This document shows positions 5,119 to 64,000 of a stretch of 64,000 nucleotides of DNA, in pieces (within the stretch, counting starts at the first letter, position 1; each line of letters begins with the position of its first letter). Under the pieces are notes generated by a model that made no database searches, was not told the origin of the DNA, and saw only the letters and a list, made by a program, of their open reading frames with translations. The position numbers were made by a program, and so were the translations under genes. Origin of the DNA: Liolophura sinensis (lineage: Eukaryota; Mollusca; Polyplacophora; Chitonida; Chitonidae). Location of the stretch: assembly GCF_032854445.1 (NCBI RefSeq), contig NC_088295.1:33469385-33533384 (forward strand), written 5' to 3'.

Positions 5119-8100
5119 TTAAAAATAATTTAGCAATGTCCAAGTTACAAGGATGATTCCAACTACACTTGTTACCTGAAACAGAAACAAAATTATTATA
5201 CTGCAGACTGAATATACATGAACCGGGTGGCTAGTGAAAGGAGACGAATCTGTGCGTAAAACACGTAGGGGAATAAAGTCAGTAGTTAGTCAAAAACGAG
5301 CCAGCAAATCAGGTATAGTTAATCGTTTGTGGCTATAAAGCTCATAGCTCTAACCTGATGTCTAATTGTTTCAGACACCGATCTTTGCTTTGATTCCGAC
5401 GACGTCCCTGTTCCAGCTTCATCGGTTGGTTGGATTTCCTGAAGTGAAAACACATATAATAATGTGGGTTTGGATACACTCTACAGTTATCTTTCTGATT
5501 TGAGAGGAAGTTCTAGGTATCTTTAGCACTGAATGTGGGGAGGTTTTTACCACAACTTCTAGCACTTTTCTATCTTGACTGGTGTCAATCTGCTGGAAGA
5601 GGGGTAAAAGTTCGCGTCACTGTTACCAAACCGTTACCTTCAGACTTTCGTTGGGTTTAATTCTGTTTAAGAAGTCGATACTAAAAATTTCTTTCAGCCT
5701 GCCCTTTTATTAAGTAATGTCTTTGGTGTCAACAGGCTAAGAGCGTTTCGGCCTTGCAGATTTAATGACTGCTCAGCCGAAACTGAATGTAACATGTGTG
5801 TGAATGGAAAACTAAATGCAATCTGAGCGTATAACTATTATCATTCTGTCACAGTTCTTGTTTCGTACTGCATCCAAGTAGAGGACACAGTCAGGTACAA
5901 CAATATACAAACAGGGGTAATACATGTAAATATGTGCAAAGCAAAACTCTTGGCTCTGAGTCACGAAGCTGTCTTAGACTTGAAAGAAAAGGCAGCCCTT
6001 TGCCAAATGTATACATACGCCCATAAGGTGTCCCACATCAAATTTACAAAGTAAATCTTTTTAGTATTGTGATGTCGTAAGAATTTTAGATTGAAAGTTA
6101 ATTTACAGAGTTAAAAGTTAATTCGTAAGAACAAAAATGCAATGACCGTTTAGATCTGTTTTCACTTTTCTTCTGAAAAAACTATGGTTAAATTGCTTGT
6201 TGTCTTTTCTTTTATGTCTGGCTTAGTCTTAATTTCAAAACAGTTGACTACGCTAATCTTGCAACTGACCAAAAGTATTTTTATTTTAATAATGGTACTA
6301 AGAGTTAGATCCTTCTGGCAAAAATGAAATGCAGCATTTACGTTCAACTGTAAGTTTGGGAACAGAATAGTACCAGAAATTAGGATTAAATGTGATTTAA
6401 GTTTAAGGCAGCTTCGCGATCCCCAGGCCAGAAGTTGAACTGTATGGTGTAATAGATTGACAACAATGACTTCACTGTTTGTTTGCCTTAATTAGACAAC
6501 ACAAACAAAACTTACCCCTAGCTTGGGAAGAGTACCATGGATAGTTCCCTGATCGTAAAATGATGTAAACACTGTTATTTTCACATTTCCTGTAGCTAAA
6601 GCGTTTACATCCACAACCGACATATCCAAGGATCCCTGCAAAAAAATAAGAATTAAGATTTACAGCAGACATTCAAAGAAAACAAAACACAAAATACCAA
6701 TTATTATTAATGATTACTATACACTACAAGAACAAATGTTTCATTTTTTAAAACATATTTCTGCTATAGTTTGGACAACCGTCAAATACCAAGGATCTCA
6801 TATGCTACAATGCATTAATTTATCTGGTAAGCGCTACATCGCCAAGGCTCATTATGGTCACCTGGTCCTCGTTTATCCTCATACGTGTAATACTCAACAC
6901 AAAGAGAAGGAGAAAAAAAAAACTTAAACGTTTAACTTTAATGTTTACGTCCAAATTCCTTCGGTGTGTTTTTCCCGATTTCACTGACATATACATCAAT
7001 TACCTCCGCTGTCACAGCTTTGCTAACATGTGCCGACGGTGAAAAATCTTCTTCGGAAATCGTAGTCAATATCTTCTCTTCATTTTGCAGGATTACAGAT
7101 GTCACTCTGTCAGCATCATGGAGGTCACGAACTGTAATACTGTAATAGAAGAATACGCTTGCACTACAAGGCCATAATAATATTCTATTCTATTCTATGT
7201 GATATGTAAATGCTGTTTTTTTTAACGCCGTTCACCAAAATTTCTTCTGATGCGATAGCGCTAGAAATCGGAGTGACCGGCGAAACCACCGACATTTGAC
7301 AAGTTACTGGCGAACTTTCCGTAGTGCGACATACAGTTATGCACATCTTGTTTGTAGAAGACAAGTTACCTTTAACGAAGATAACTCATGTATACAGTGG
7401 TCTGACCTTATGAAGGATATGAGTGAATGTCAGTAACTCACGTGAACAGTAGGCTGACCTTATGAAGGATATGAGTGAATGTAACAAACACATATATACA
7501 GTGAGCTGGCCTTATGAAGGATATGAGTGAATGTGACTAACTCACGTATACAGTAGGCTGACCTTATTAAGGATATGAGTGAATGTGACTAAGACATGTA
7601 TACAATGGACTGACCTTATGAAGGATACGAGCGAATGTCATTAACTCACGTGTACAATAGGCTGACCTTATGAAGGATATGAGTGAATGTGACTAACTCA
7701 CGTATACAGTAGGCTGACCTTATTAAGGATATGAGTGAATGTGACTAACACATGTATACAGTGGACTGACCTTATGAAGGACACGAGCGAATGTCATTAA
7801 CTCACGTGTAGAGTAGGCTGACCTTATGAAGGATATGAGTGAATGTAACAAACACATGTATACAGTGAGCTGACCTTATGAAGGATATGAGTGAATGTGA
7901 CTAACTCACGTATACAGTAGGCTGACCTTATTAAGGATATGAGTGAATGTGACTAACACATGTATACAGTGGACTGACCTTATGAAGGATACGAGCGAAT
8001 GTCATTAACTCACGTGTACAGTAGGCTGACCTTATGAAGGATATGAGTGAATGTCACTAACTTACGTGTAATGTAGGGTGCTGTCAGTCGGTTTATAGGC

Positions 8101-33439: not shown

Positions 33440-33790
33440 GAGATCACCGCGTTGGATTTATGAACAGTTGCAATCAAAGCGTAACTGAGACACATATTTT
33501 TTATCGACAACCGATATTCTTGTATGGTACACTATCTGAATACTGATTTCACTGTGGCCTAGATAATACCTCGCGTCTTTCCAACATCAATGAAAACTGT
33601 TCCATGCTTCTCTTTGCATTATTCCGTCTTGCTATATACTTTATATACATGGTTAGTTCTTTGGTGTTTTGTGTTATACGTTGTTTTTGGAACTGGCCTT
33701 GCGATTATTGACCTGGTACCTTCATATTGGTTGACGACAGGTGTACGAATCTCTGTTTCGACGCATAGATACAGTGATTTTGAGATAATT
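33440..33790 (+). repeat. R2 copy
   Basis: Near full-length match to the 14.6-kb copy, beginning tttatgaacagttgcaatca. It ends 600 bp upstream of the GGDEF gene, which shows that the gene sits in host repeat DNA. Confidence 0.8.
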
Positions 33791-34086
33791 TGAACTCGAT
33801 AGACCAGGTCATATCTTACCTTTTAAATTGTTTTCAACTCCTCTGATTTTCCGCTATTAGGAAATACTTTAAAGAAAGCTGCTAATGTCTTGATGGGCGT
33901 CTTTGGCTAATTACATATAGTTTCAACCCAAGGTTTCAAGGACTCAGTATGGGAGGTCATCCATTCCATAGCTATTATCCGATTACAATCGTCCTTATAG
34001 TTTGTTCCATAAGGCTGTTGAATGATACTTTCTATAATGACAGTTTAGCATTGAATTAAGCTGTTTTCTTTCTTTTTTATTTACAG

Positions 34087-34206
34087 TTTGAAATGATACC
34101 GGACGCCGTTTCTTCATTACCAGAGCTACGTGCATCACAAATGGTGGACAGCTTCTATAAAAGGGTTATTCTGAGACACAAGTGTGATGTTAAGACAGTG
34201 AATTGA
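34087..34206 (+). other. Candidate exon upstream of the GGDEF gene
   Basis: A strong acceptor (ttttttatttacag) at 34086 is followed by an open frame starting FEMIPDAVSSLPELRASQMV and ending in TGA at 34204-34206. It could be a 5'-UTR exon of the GGDEF transcript (with a short upstream ORF), or the last exon of another gene. Confidence 0.3.
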
Positions 34207-34374
34207 GTGAAAGGCATTCAGATGTAAAATATGCGAGCCCTCAGTCATACGCAAAATATTGGCATCAAAGGTTGTGTCTCAGATTTATGATTTCCAAGTT
34301 TTGCTCCCAGTTTTTGTTCTGAATTGCGAAGAAAAAAACCCCTGAGATGTCATTGTCCGTGTGAATGACTGAAA

Positions 34375-35079
34375 ATGTCTATTCACCAGCTGTGCGGGAT
34401 GTTCGCAGTTGTTTTTGTAGGCAACATCGTTATGGTGTTATATATCTTAGAAATTCGTGACCAGGAATTAAAAGATCTAAAACAGCGATGTGAAACGTTC
34501 AGGCGGGCGGCCATGACTGACTTGTTAACAGGTCTTCATAACAGACGCTACATAAAAGAGGAATGGCTTCCCAGGATCAGTAACTCTGGAGATAACCGAG
34601 AGCAAGCTCTGGTGTGTTTAATAGACGTCGATAATTTCAAGTGGTTCAACGATGCCCATTCATACCACACAGGGGACAGAGTATTAATAAGGGTGGGAAG
34701 GCACATTAGGAAGCAGTCCTGTTCAGGAGACAGCATTATCCGATGGGGAGGGGATGAGTTTGTATGGGTGATCACATCTCCAAACCAAATCAACATATCA
34801 TCTTGGGAAACGACGTTCAATTATCATGATGGTAACGGTACTCTGGTAGAGTCTGGGTTTGGAAAAAATTCCCAAGGATCGCCATGGATTCCACACAAGG
34901 TTGAGGAACAAGTTTCGGAATGTAAGGGTTTAACTTGCTCCGACAAAAATGAATTCCATGTATCGTTGTCTGTCGGTTGTTCACTGCTTGGGGGATCCTG
35001 GAAAAATACATTTGCTCGATGTGATGACGCCCTAAAGAGAAGCAAACGGCTAGGCAAACGTCGAGTGACTATTCTCTGA
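34375..35079 (+). CDS. Membrane-anchored GGDEF-domain protein (putative diguanylate cyclase)
   Basis: Intronless frame of 234 aa, with an in-frame TGA three codons before the ATG. Residues 8-26 form one transmembrane helix, 27-47 a charged linker helix, and 48-234 a complete GGDEF fold: DLLTGLHNRR (49-58), DVDNFKWFND (84-93, with the metal-binding Asp), RWGGDEFVW (123-131, intact signature), SLSVGCS (197-203) and CDDALKRSKRLGKRRV (216-231). Enzymes of this family condense two GTP into cyclic di-GMP. Oddities: the GH of the NDxxGHxxGD motif reads SY; the inhibitory I-site RxxD reads CSGD, so Arg is lost; and about 68 residues separate GGDEF from SVG, much longer than usual. Host repeat R2 lies 0.6 kb upstream, so contamination is unlikely. 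I infer horizontal acquisition from bacteria or an ancient retained gene. Activity is plausible, not proven. Confidence 0.9.
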   Translation: MSIHQLCGMFAVVFVGNIVMVLYILEIRDQELKDLKQRCETFRRAAMTDLLTGLHNRRYIKEEWLPRISNSGDNREQALVCLIDVDNFKWFNDAHSYHTGDRVLIRVGRHIRKQSCSGDSIIRWGGDEFVWVITSPNQINISSWETTFNYHDGNGTLVESGFGKNSQGSPWIPHKVEEQVSECKGLTCSDKNEFHVSLSVGCSLLGGSWKNTFARCDDALKRSKRLGKRRVTIL

Positions 35080-36105
35080 CAATCACTAAATGACCGTGAT
35101 TCAGGGCTTTCATATTCATGGTCATGCCTTTATCTGATTAATAATGATGCTGCATACAATGCCCTTTTAGCAACTTGCAACCGAGTTCATTTTAAAAAAG
35201 GAAATATTCTCAAAATATTAAAGTCTTCCCGACCATGATTTTTGCTCAAAGGTCTATATGGTTAAGAAAACCCCACGACAAAAGATATTTTCACATAGAA
35301 TAGATTGATGTACACTTTACCTAAAATGATCACATAATTAGCAGGCAATAGAAATTACAAGAAAATACTCAAAAAGTTTTCAGGCAATAATTTAGAGATT
35401 CACCTTTCCGGCCTGCTACAAATCGTCTGTTTTTAATGTTAAAAAAAAAAAATTCAGCTTACGTTGAGCCCACATTGGAGAACTAATTGTATTTAGTGTC
35501 TCGGGGTCAGCAACACCTCCCACTTTATTTGGCTTTTTAGCGAGGAACCCCAAAATCTCTCAGTGTAGTGAAATCATTCTTAATTACAATAAGACAATAA
35601 ACAAGATTGGCCTCGTCCAGAGAAAAATGAACCCAGATCATACCAATGAGCTCTCACTCATCAAAAACGATTGCATGATTAAATATTACGCTCACCGGGT
35701 TAATCTACCGCTGACGATCACTCAGATACATAATGGCAGTATATCTATATATACACTCGGTATAATGTGAGTATTTGTCTTACACTAAGCTGAACACTAA
35801 GATCCAAACACTAAGCAACAAAACTTGCCTAGTTCTCTGTTCTCTGATGGATCTTCTATCTAGACTTACATGATACCAGCTTACAAATATTGATTTGAAT
35901 GCTTATATTTTGTTTTGCATTATGTAAATTGTAAGACCCATTGTATGTGCACGTTATATTAGCAAAATGTTTAGCAGGATTACTATCCTTGCCATTGGCC
36001 ATGAATAACGAAAAATGGAACAAGAGGCTTGCGAAAGTTTGGACATTATAACTTAATGCCAAATCGTTTTTGTCTTTATTTGTGATACTTTATAACAACT
36101 GATTG
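35080..36105. other. Downstream flank of the GGDEF gene
   Basis: Non-coding. A 12-A run lies at about 35441 and an AATAAA at 35596-35601. Either could mark the transcript end. No other gene seen. Confidence 0.4.
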
Positions 36106-36258: not shown

Positions 36259-36549
36259 TGAGAAACAGCTCTCCGATTTGTTGAAATAAACACTCACTCA
36301 CTTGAACACAACATCAGAGGAAGACAAAACATTACCTCAAGCTTACCATCAGTGTTTTCACAAATAACGGGGTCCAGTTGAAGACTACAGCTCATGCGGA
36401 CATTCATCTAAGCTGCGGTTATATTGGATACTGTGTCCCATTGGTAGGGACACGGGGTTTAGAAACGAGTTAAAACTAGGGTAGCAAACAATTCCAACCA
36501 AACGCTACTAATAATACTTCTACCTGTATTTGGTCGCATATATCCTACC

Positions 36550-36745
36550 AATCTGTGACATGAACTTTGGCGAACTCCTTTGTGGTCTAGCTGTACTTCC
36601 ATCGGCGATGCACACGTATGTCCCTGAGTAGCAGGGCCTGATATCCGTCAGTGTGAAGTTTGTCAGCGGGGACACTATATCCCCTGTATCTCTTCTCCAA
36701 ATCGCTTCATTTCCTGGATTTGCCTCATCTGTAACATTTTCCAGA
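36550..36745 (-). pseudogene. Ig-domain exon, minus-strand copy
   Basis: Encodes WRRDTGDIVSPLTNFTLTDI and then SGTYVCIADGSTARP, the typical end of an Ig V/I-type domain with the second cysteine, followed by a donor (GATTG|GTAGGA). It is homologous to the plus-strand copy at 46.5 kb. The Asp-Ser of the usual DSGTYxC reads YSGTYVC. I cannot tell whether it is functional. Confidence 0.55.
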
Positions 36746-46489: not shown

Positions 46490-47320
46490 TAGGAGCTATA
46501 GCGTTACAGGGGATGTAGTGTCCCCGCTGTCAAATTTCACATTAATGGTTATTAGGCCCTCCGACTCAGGGACATACGTGTGCATTGCCAATGTGAAGTG
46601 CAGCGAGACAACTAATGCATTAGCCAAAGTTAATGACATCACAGATGGGTAGAATATATACGACAAAAAAGAAGTAAGAATATTATTGGTAGTTTTTGGC
46701 TAGAGTAGTTTGTTGTGCTATAGGCCTATTTAACATATCCCTTCCGTTTAATCACTAGTGACCCATTCTAAAAAGATGTAACATGACCGCATATCTCATC
46801 ACTTTATGTTGTTATGAAAATTACGCCAGGCCCAGTTTGCGAGTGTTTCATGCAACGGTCCCCATGGCCTTAAATCCATGTGTATGGGTTTGTAGCTGGT
46901 GAATAAAGTAGCTGGTTTACTGTAGTAAGTACAACACACTTTGTTCACAACTTAGAAACCACTACATATTCTGATGGTGATGTTTCGATGTATTCCTAAA
47001 TTGGCCGGCCTCATGAAGAGGCTATTACTGTACATCATGGACAAAGATAAAAAAAGCGGCCTACTACTTCATTACACGTTCACAAATACGCTTGTTTTTC
47101 TAACGTTGGTTATTCCATTTACACGCCTGTTATTTTTTTTGGTATCAGTATGCATTCTTTTAATTACCGATTTAATTGGAGTAAAATTAGATTCAATATC
47201 CAGGTAATGAGATGGAATTCTTTAATTAATGATTCTGTGTTATGTTTCAGATACTCTTATAAAGAGATCAATACCTCCAGTCATTCAAGGGCCAATGACT
47301 ACAACAGATCAAGAATGACT
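46490..47320 (+). pseudogene. Ig-domain gene fragment, plus-strand copy
   Basis: 46500-46651 encodes TGDVVSPLSNFTLMVIRPSD and DSGTYVCIANVKCSETTNAL, a good Ig I/V-type end, then a donor (gatgg|gtagaa). At 47251 a tgtttcag acceptor starts a short frame, TLIKRSIPPVIQGP, which looks like the start of the next Ig domain but stops after 24 residues. The first half of the Ig domain is missing because the minisatellite lies there. A hydrophobic frame at 46974-47203 with a donor could be a TM exon. Likely a broken gene. Confidence 0.5.
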
Positions 47321-47597
47321 TTGCTATGAACCAAGGCACCAGACAATAAACATATATTTGGGAAACCTTGCCACTTTTAAACTGTAATTTCCGTAGCCTG
47401 AAAAATGAGAAGATTCGGACCGTGTAGTTTTTGCATATTCTACGTGGAAATGGAGGTCAAGATCGTGGAAATTTGATGAATGTCGGGGAATAGTTACTGG
47501 GCCTTTGTGTAGCCGTTTGATTCTATTCAGCGCGTCATCGCATCGAGCAAATGCGTGTGTCCAGTGCCCCCCATATTCCGAGTCTTATTTCTCAGGC

Positions 47598-47712
47598 AGG
47601 GCCCCGTGGCTCAGTTGGTTAGCGCGCTAGCGCAGCGTAATGACCAAGGATCCTCTCACCAATGTGGTCGTTGTGAGTTCAAGTCCGGCTCATGCTGGCT
47701 TTCTCTCCGCAG
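47598..47712 (+). mobile_element. Family A SINE, 5' half only
   Basis: Head ggccccgtggctcagttggt with gcgcgctagcgc, the B-box side gtggtcgttgtgagttcaag, then loss of the 3' module. It retains both polymerase III boxes. Confidence 0.85.
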
Positions 47713-61309: not shown

Positions 61310-61561
61310 GTTTGTGATGAACTCCTACAGTAAAACATAGGACTATGTAGGTCAGTCGTACAACTATTTTTACTGTAGAGATCGGATATTTACAAATTCT
61401 GTTGTGATTTAGTTTTTATGAGTTACCTCACGTTGACTGTTGTTTTTACTGCTCCTCCACGATAGGCAATTCCAGGGAATAACGCAGTAAATCGCACTGG
61501 TGATTGATTCATCATGTAACATCAAATATAAACAATCCCGAATGGACGAAGGATAAAATTC

Positions 61562-64000
61562 AAGGGGTGACTTGGGGAATGCGACATTGGCAGTATTTCA
61601 TCCATATCGTGGTGATAAGTAATTCTGAGTGGATGCCCGGGAAATGCCACATTGGCAGTATTTCATCCATATCCTGGTGATAAGTAATCCTGAGTGGATG
61701 CCCGGGAAATGCCACACTGGCAGGATTTTATCCATATCGTGGTGATAAGTAATCCTGAGTGGATGCCCGGGAAATGCCACATTGGCAGTATTTCATCCAT
61801 ATCCTGGTGATAAGTAATCCTGAGTGGATGCCCGGGAAATGCCACACTGGCAGGATTTTATCCATATCGTGGTGATAAGTAATTCTGAGTGGATGCCCGG
61901 GAAATGCCACATTGGCAGTATTTCATCCATATCGTGGTGATAAGTAATTCTGAGTGGATGCCCGGGAAATGCCACATTGGCAGTATTTCATCCATATCGT
62001 GGTGATAAGTAATCCTGAGTGGATGCCCGGGAAATGCCACACTGGCAGGATTTTATCCATATCGTGGTGATAAGCAAGTCTGAATGGATGACCGGAAATT
62101 TAATTCCACACGGGCAGTATTTCGGCCAAATAGCGGTGATAAACAATCCTGAATGAATGCCCGGGGATTTAATGCCACACTGGCGGCATTTCGGTCATAT
62201 CGTGGTAATGAGCAATCATGAATGGATGACTAGGAGGAATGCCACACCGGCGGCATTTCGGTCATATCGTGGTAATAAGTAATCTTGAATGGATGACTAG
62301 GAGGAATGGCACACCGGCGGCATTTCCGTCATATCGTGGTAATGAGCAATCTTGAATGGATGATTAGGAGGAATGGCACACTGGCGGCATTTCGGTCATA
62401 TCGTGGTAATGAGCAATCTTGAATGGATGACTAGGAGGAATGGTACACTGGCGGCATTTCAGTCATATCGTGGTAATGAGCAATCTTGAATGGATGACTA
62501 GGAGAAATGCCACACTGGCGGCATTTCCGTCATATCGTGGTAATGAGCAATCTTGAATGGATGACTAGGAGGAATGCCACACTGGCGGTATTTCGGTCAT
62601 ATCGTGGTAATGAGCAATCTTGAATGGATGACTAGGAGGAATGGCACACTGGCGGCATTTCCGTCATATCGTGGTAATGAGCAATCTTGAATGGATGACT
62701 AGGAGGAATGCCACACTGGCGGCATTTCGGTCATATCGTGGTAATGAGCAATCTTGAATGGATGATTAGGAGGAATGGCACACTGGCGGCATTTCGGTCA
62801 TATCGTGGTAATGAGCAATCTTGAATGGATGACTAGGAGGAATGCCACACTGGCGGTATTTCGGTCATATCGTGGTAATGAGCAATCTTGAATGGATGAC
62901 TAGGAGGAATGGTACACTGGCGGCATTTCAGTCATATCGTGGTAATAAGTAATCTTGAATGGATGACTAGGAGGAATGGCACACTGGCAGCATTTCGGTC
63001 GTATCGTGGTAATGAGCAATCATGAATGGATGATTAGGAGGAATGGCACACCGGCGGCATTTCGGTCATATCGTGGTAATGAGCAATCTTGAATGGATGA
63101 CTAGGAGGAATGGTACACTGGCGGCATTTCAGTCATATCGTGGTAATGAGCAATCTTGAATGGATGATTAGGAGAAATGCCACACTGGCGGCATTTCAGT
63201 CATATCGTGGTAATGAGCAATCTTGAATGGATGACTAGGAGGAATGCCACACTGGCGGTATTTCGGTCATATCGTGGTAATGAGGAATCTTGAATGGATG
63301 ACTAGGAGGAATGGCACACCGGCGGCATTTCCGTCATATCGTGGTAATGAGCAATCTTGAATGGATGACTAGGAGGAATGGCACACTGGCGGCATTTCAG
63401 TCATATCGTGGTAATGAGCAATCTTGAATGGATGACTAGGAGGAATGGCACACTGGCGGCATTTCGGTCATATCGTGGTAATGAGCAATCTTGAATGGAT
63501 GACTAGGAGGAATGCCACACTGGCGGTATTTCGGTCATATCGTGGTAATGAGCAATCTTGAATGGATGACTAGGAGGAATGGTACACTGGCGGCATTTCG
63601 GTCATATCGTGGTAATGAGCAATCTTGAATGGATGATTAGGAGGAATGGCACACTGGCGGCATTTCGGTCATATCGTGGTAATGAGCAACCTTGAATGGA
63701 TGACTAGGAGGAATGCCACACTGGCGGTATTTCGGTCATATCGTGGTAATGAGCAATCTTGAATGGATGACTAGGAGGAATGGTACACTGGCGGCATTTC
63801 AGTCATATCGTGGTAATAAGCAATCTTGAATGGATGACTAGGAGGAATGCCACACTGGCAGCATTTCGGTCATATCGTGGTAATGAGCAATCATGAATGG
63901 ATGACTAGGAGGAATGGTACACTGGCGGCATTTCCGTCATATCGTGGTAATGAGAAATCTTGAATGGATGACTAGGGGGAATGGCACACTGGCAGCATTT
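61562..64000 (+). repeat. 65/67-bp satellite array running off the window
   Basis: 61562 to about 62100: about 8 units of exactly 65 bp (gagtggatgcccgggaaatg...). From about 62220: about 26 units of 67 bp (gaatggatgactaggaggaa...), with about two transitional units between. Both types share gccacactggc, atttc and catatcgtggt. The array is uninterrupted to the last base. Confidence 0.96.

Follow-up and report, generated by a model that had tools for sequence, protein, structure and literature searches.

Does an animal chromosome encode, and has it kept, a diguanylate cyclase of its own? The question is raised by a single open reading frame in a 64-kb stretch of DNA (the window, meaning the whole of the stretch that was analysed) from a chiton genome that was published under the name Liolophura japonica (PMC11068029), a species assignment since corrected to L. 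sinensis (PMC12441733). GGDEF domains were described in 2010, before the Dictyostelium enzyme DgcA, as entirely absent from eukaryotes (PMC2904730), and DgcA was introduced as the first putative eukaryotic cyclase (PMC4686194). One account has GGDEF domains "strictly excluded from eukaryotes" (PMC12657218), and another names Dictyostelium as the only eukaryote that makes cyclic di-GMP (c-di-GMP; PMC10399225). Among the papers listed by searches of the open-licence PMC literature, titles and abstracts revealed no recognised report of an animal GGDEF cyclase, and unremarked orthologues may exist in sequence databases; the words GGDEF and diguanylate do not occur in the Acanthopleura genome paper. 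A mollusc that bears STING and has a GGDEF gene, intact and to all appearance under constraint, contradicts the statement of exclusion and widens the statement that confines c-di-GMP synthesis to Dictyostelium.

The Gene and Its Domain Architecture

The encoded protein of 234 residues is read from a single exon (Table 1), exactly the intronless frame of the original prediction. A TGA at 34366–34368 closes the frame upstream, and because no AG occurs between this stop and the ATG, an upstream exon cannot contribute coding sequence, which rules out the upstream coding exon that was considered and leaves a coding sequence of one exon. An A occupies position −3 relative to the ATG. The putative splice site and exon start some 0.3 kb upstream would belong to the same transcript.

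Table 1. Coordinates of the GGDEF gene, its parts, its decayed copies, and the associated exons (window positions unless a scaffold is named)
Feature	Position	Strand	Basis or similarity
Putative 3′ splice site TTTACAG (34080–34086) and start of an exon for the 5′ UTR	34080..34145	+	Similar stretch beside relic 2
GGDEF protein coding sequence, 234 residues, ATG to TGA, single exon	34375..35079	+	Open frame and Pfam match
Predicted membrane helix, residues 7–25	34393..34449	+	Kyte-Doolittle mean/maximum 2.4; AF2 helix 3–46
Predicted helical stalk, residues 26–46, continuous with the membrane helix	34450..34512	+	AF2 helix 3–46
DVDNFKWFND, with D84 (metal), K89, and N92 (guanine contact)	34624..34653	+	D84, K89, N92, and D93 invariant in the 7-row and 12-row alignments
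GGDEF signature, residues 125–129	34747..34761	+	Pfam match; 7-row alignment
About 28–30 extra residues after the GGDEF strand	34789..34878	+	Found in none of the other six sequences in the 7-row alignment; low-confidence model
DDALKRSK block with K224	35023..35046	+	7-row alignment; direct residue reading
Candidate poly(A) signal ATTAAA	35217..35222	+	Sequence motif
Ig-like exon in the block of the gene, convergent with the GGDEF gene	36485..36733	−	80–82% to 46712–46505 and to the copy beyond the window
Paralogous Ig-like exon, block of relic 1	46505..46712	+	Pfam Ig_3 at E 0.0047, short of the curated cut-off
Relic 1, decayed inverted copy of the 3′ end of the gene, stop lost	47471..47573	−	77.7% over 103 bp
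Relic 2, decayed inverted copy of the 3′ end	C1:33539736–33539648, 6.3 kb past the window	inverted	83% over 89 bp

The Pfam GGDEF profile (PF00990) matches residues 46–138 far beyond chance (E 4.4e-25; 88.8 bits, with the cut-off at 23.8), and the NCBIfam profile TIGR00254 is likewise above its cut-off (89.4 bits against 37.4). The best-scoring NCBIfam model is that of SiaD (NF038266, E 9.3e-27), and with 94 bits the chiton protein does not reach the 290 bits that mark a SiaD-type equivalog. The Pfam match covers positions 1–93 of the 161 in the profile and stops halfway because the extra residues, about 28 in number at roughly 139–168, come after the GGDEF strand. Sequence similarity is weak in the C-terminal half, although a few bacterial alignments extend to residues 231–233, and this half is otherwise identified from the predicted structure and from the motifs SVG and DDALKRSK. 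These two motifs had been noted at the outset together with DVDNFKWFND and RWGGDEF, and all four are present. The hydrophobic segment near the N terminus agrees with the one transmembrane helix that had been proposed, and the stalk that continues it would, by analogy with the DgcB, SiaD, and WspR structures that it matches, be the expected dimerising signalling helix. No sensor domain was found in the protein.

The AF2 model (pLDDT 80.7, pTM 0.73; 12 alignment rows) comprises a helix at residues 3–46 and structural elements up to residue 233, with the insert after the GGDEF strand modelled poorly (pLDDT ~50). All 50 matches listed by Foldseek are GGDEF-domain proteins, with E values of 3.9e-15 to a WspR fusion and 4.2e-15 to SiaD. 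In VIA-align, for which all 50 matches listed are again GGDEF-domain proteins, the best among them is SiaD (7e6g; Z 21.3, 201 aligned, rmsd 3.6), and DgcB (6ttr) gives a Z of 20.8 (189 aligned, rmsd 1.8). DosP and FimX, both with a GGDEF domain, are counted among them. The complete GGDEF fold of the original prediction is therefore upheld in the predicted structure, in which the domain includes its C-terminal half, with structural alignments that run to residue 234 at Z values of about 20, whereas the Pfam profile is matched in its first part only.

The Predicted Active Site

Residues D84, K89, N92, D93, D101, R123, G125, G126, E128, F129, D217, and K224 are invariant in the 7-row alignment. 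In the 12-row alignment, which consists of the query, six bacterial sequences, and five of the 13 viral-contig loci and also served for the structure model, D84, K89, N92, D93, D101, G125, G126, F129, and K224 are still invariant. D327, K332, N335, D344, E370, and K442 of PleD are the equivalents of D84, K89, N92, D101, D127, and K224, respectively, and R446 of PleD corresponds to K228, an arginine-to-lysine change. By analogy with PleD, D84, K89, N92, D101, D127, E128, and K224 would contact metal, guanine, or phosphate; all are kept, as is the GG[DE]EF signature, in line with an intact-looking GTP site. The RxxD motif of product inhibition reads CSGD in the chiton protein, with C and D at residues 116 and 119, and feedback by the product is therefore not expected there. 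Such an inhibition site is present in many GGDEF cyclases but not in all, and it does not define them. These residues thus suggest a GTP site that could work and a loss of product control at RxxD.

Taken with the predicted fold, the protein is quite probably a functional, anciently acquired, membrane-anchored diguanylate cyclase of the chiton. The protein would begin with a short N terminus and a single membrane helix, and its helical stalk would bring two subunits together as a dimer. In each subunit, the GGDEF domain would bind one GTP, with N92 and D101 as contacts and metal bound at D84 and D127, and the two GTP molecules would then be joined by the dimer into 3′3′-cyclic di-GMP. A resident protein that is catalytically dead or repurposed, acting as a sensor of GTP or cyclic dinucleotides or as a membrane scaffold and making no c-di-GMP, is an unlikely alternative: degenerate GGDEF domains commonly serve as sensors in bacteria, and the change at the PleD R446 position, the divergent C-terminal half, and the 28-residue insert would fit this reading, but the acidic, lysine, and guanine-contact residues are kept, and a sensor of this sort would require the product-binding RxxD motif, which has been lost. 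The K228 change and the insert, lying in a divergent half of a model that cannot show product specificity, could also point to an active enzyme with another product, either 3′3′-cGAMP or a linear dinucleotide. This outcome is highly improbable in view of the guanine contacts N92 and D101, both kept, and GGDEF variants known to make cGAMP have serine at the position equivalent to D101.

The orientation of a membrane-anchored cyclase would bear on its access to substrate. The charge is +1 N-terminal to the membrane helix; C-terminal to it, the sum is −1 for the 15 residues that come first and +1 over 21, a balance that is ambiguous and leans weakly towards a lumenal GGDEF domain. The lumenal side is poor in GTP, so this lean counts against an active cyclase. 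The insert contains two N-X-S/T sites, and the shuffled protein gives 1.7 by chance. If the domain were lumenal or outside the cell, the mechanism would change, perhaps to a secreted signal by analogy with Dictyostelium.

A Duplicated Block in the Host Chromosome

Two decayed copies of the 3′ end of the gene occur downstream of it on its own scaffold (C1, 96,433,062 bases), at distances of 12.4 and 35.2 kb, each found by DNA search to comprise the last codons and 12–16 bases past the position of the stop. A multi-copy repeat (47599–47709) starts about 25 bases upstream of relic 1 and has another copy at 66551–66440 (93%). Relic 2 adjoins a stretch that resembles 34080–34145, including the 3′ splice site; the blastn match (72%, E 1.8) is weak alone, but order and strand are as expected and the alignment near the splice site is good. 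On this pairing, relic 2 would lack some 800 bp, almost all of the GGDEF body. The gene and both relics are accompanied, in matching order, by an Ig-like exon encoded on the other strand, so that a block of the GGDEF gene and the Ig-like exon was duplicated within the animal lineage. Seven frames of the window were compared with Pfam and none scored above the cut-off, the best being the Ig_3 match of Table 1. The block with the Ig-like exon is present three times, twice in the window and once farther along C1, and two of the three carry GGDEF relics.

The gene is fixed in the host chromosome and has a history in the host lineage, and it is very likely a genuine host gene of the GGDEF type. As had been noted, a host repeat lies 0.6 kb upstream (33451–33770), with further copies in the window. 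Membership in a bacterial-type family and the lack of introns might suggest contamination or an assembly chimera, a possibility that accompanied the original prediction. It is dismissed because the decayed copies sit downstream in a repeated block of the same chromosome, and its probability is close to nil; the 64-kb window contains no N bases, and the identity to bacterial and viral sequences is only 25–43%. A multi-copy mobile element that carries the GGDEF gene was also considered and rejected, the DNA search of 33900–35500, which passes over very common words, having matched the gene and the two relics only.

Probable Constraint on the Intact Copy

The 73 bases that are present in all three copies permit a comparison of their rates of change. 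The gene is identical to relic 1 at 58 of these sites (79%) and to relic 2 at 62 (85%), and the relics are alike at 53 (73%). Private changes number two in the gene, 11 in relic 1, and seven in relic 2, with two sites different in all three; by codon reading, one of the two changes in the gene is silent and the other a replacement. A one-sided binomial for a gene share of changes below one third gives 0.018, and the Tajima statistic is 6.2 for the gene against relic 1 and 2.78 for the gene against relic 2, the latter not significant alone. Past the stop, the flanks of the two relics are 79% alike. The flank of the gene is 44% alike to that of relic 1, which is chance level (57 of 100 shuffles score as high), and 51% alike to that of relic 2, which one of 100 shuffles reaches, slightly above chance.

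In a neutral simulation with a simple uniform mutation model, and with an indel rate taken from 10 gap runs over 535 aligned sites of one alignment, a branch of 0.14 (half the relic–relic distance) leaves the frame free of stops with a probability of 0.02 and free of indels with a probability of 0.0014. From this small sample of 73 bases, the intact gene has probably been kept under constraint beside its decayed copies, and its slower change relative to the relics makes unlikely the neutral persistence of the frame that the original prediction had allowed for. The alternative that an old transfer left a gene without function, on its way to decay but by luck still open, would fit the decay of the two other copies and the lack of introns. 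It is nevertheless very unlikely, given two private changes against 11 and seven and a product of the neutral no-stop and no-indel chances of about 3e-5.

The distance between the relics is 0.28–0.36. At assumed rates of 2–5e-9 per site per year, which were not measured in chitons, the relics would have split, as a rough estimate, some 28–90 million years ago, and the separation of the gene itself would be older if the relics are sisters.

Relatives and Origin of the Gene

The chiton gene is the only GGDEF match found in the genome (632 contigs, 609,464,459 bases). Bacterial and viral relatives reach 25–43% identity to it, and the rows of the 7- and 12-row alignments 21–30%. Among GTDB contigs, six of 20 pattern-matching stretches are GGDEF relatives (25–35%). 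The 2117 plasmid records are all below 60% identity, with 28.5–30% among the 15 matches listed. Viral contigs gave one of three stretches in one search, in which L008 proved to be a chance motif outside the GGDEF family, and 13 of 47 in another (29–41%). All five bacterial genomes that were searched directly have a GGDEF match, and within one phylum at least 196 of 398 genomes match at an E value of 1e-14 or better, with a best score of 71.3 bits among the matches listed. Across these five genomes and this phylum, from which most of the bacterial sampling comes, identities are 24–43% among the matches listed, mostly over residues 30–140.

A tree of 22 rows, from which L008, the presumed duplicates with identical match values (L012, L014, and L019–L022), and four loci with no motif in the searched stretch (L004, L005, L017, and L023) were left out, has two starred branches of 19. 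No starred set includes the query, which lies on a long branch, and no supported sister group of the chiton protein was found in this tree. The original prediction that the lineage had acquired a bacterial cyclase thus stands in so far as a bacterial-type GGDEF gene resides in a lophotrochozoan chromosome, whereas for the transfer itself the searches and the tree point to no donor. The GGDEF family is described as encompassing prokaryotic proteins and is set apart from the cGAS-like family in the account that treats both (PMC8204762). Given the range of the family, a bacterial origin is the simplest reading, and the gene would have been acquired by transfer from a bacterium before the block was duplicated. 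Alternatively, there would have been no transfer from bacterium to mollusc: the gene would have descended vertically from an early eukaryote, or have been passed on by some other one (an amoebozoan, for instance), with losses elsewhere, an origin compatible with an active enzyme. The tree places the gene beside no bacterium and Dictyostelium has a GGDEF cyclase (PMC4686194), but many losses would be needed if GGDEF proteins are as rare in eukaryotes as the literature has it, and this origin is rather improbable.

STING and Other Parts of a Possible Signalling Pathway

The chiton genome contains STING exons: a search gave five matches to exons of the STING ligand domain on C12, one of which matches solved STING chains, including a metazoan TIR-STING fusion. 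The region C12:21312000–21371400 (L041–L044) contains several such exons, distributed over both strands in less than 60 kb, and the STING genes of the chiton may form a cluster there. STING and PilZ were the receptor families searched, and STING alone gave matches; neither PilZ nor an EAL phosphodiesterase had a match in the genome. The single GGDEF match and the absence of an EAL match are counted against an active cyclase.

Oyster STING is reported to bind 3′3′ cyclic dinucleotides (PMC8204762). Mussel STING is reported to bind c-di-GMP with a K_D of 42.7 micromolar, RNA interference points to a role in metamorphosis, and bacterial c-di-GMP is reported in the same source as a trigger of metamorphosis in a mollusc (PMC11190208). 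If the chiton protein is an active cyclase, its product may be read by the STING of the host. A pathway of a mollusc lineage's own can be proposed tentatively, in which a bacterial cyclase, acquired some tens of millions of years before the present and maintained by selection, would supply c-di-GMP as a second messenger of the animal itself, read through STING in settlement, development, or immunity. One molecule would then be both a bacterial cue and an internal signal. Whether the animal makes c-di-GMP becomes testable, and the answer matters for how the biology of mollusc STING is read.

Comparison with Known Systems

Similar to the solved bacterial cyclases with a stalk or membrane anchor, namely, DgcB, SadC, YfiN/TpbB, SiaD, and WspR, the chiton protein combines a stalk helix with a GGDEF domain in its predicted fold (VIA Z 19–21) and has the GTP and metal residues. 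The main differences are that the chiton protein is encoded in an animal chromosome, is 21–30% identical to the aligned rows, has about 28 extra residues after the GGDEF motif, and lacks both an RxxD motif and any sensor domain that could be found. As with animal cGAS and cGAS-like receptors that feed STING, the chiton enzyme would give an animal with STING a cyclic dinucleotide of its own; those receptors differ in having an unrelated nucleotidyltransferase fold and other products. DgcA of Dictyostelium is, as described, also a eukaryotic GGDEF cyclase encoded by a single gene (PMC4686194), although it is amoebozoan and is likened here by description. In the mussel, too, a mollusc STING is reported to bind c-di-GMP and to act in metamorphosis (PMC11190208), but there the c-di-GMP is of bacterial source, whereas the chiton has a candidate synthase of its own.

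Other Features of the Window and Assembly

At 156–1568 of the window, a long open frame encodes CNRRTINCST-like units again and again; it overlies a tandem repeat that steps by about 33 bp and is probably low-complexity sequence rather than a gene. Outside the window, contig C99 carries seven copies of mitochondrial COX1 about 15.5 kb apart, which probably represent mitochondrial units in tandem that stayed in the assembly; the gene order of the mitochondrial contig is that of chitons such as Katharina. Self-comparison of the window also revealed tandem arrays at 61559–64000 and 7382–8080, with units of about 67 bp and 52 bp, respectively.
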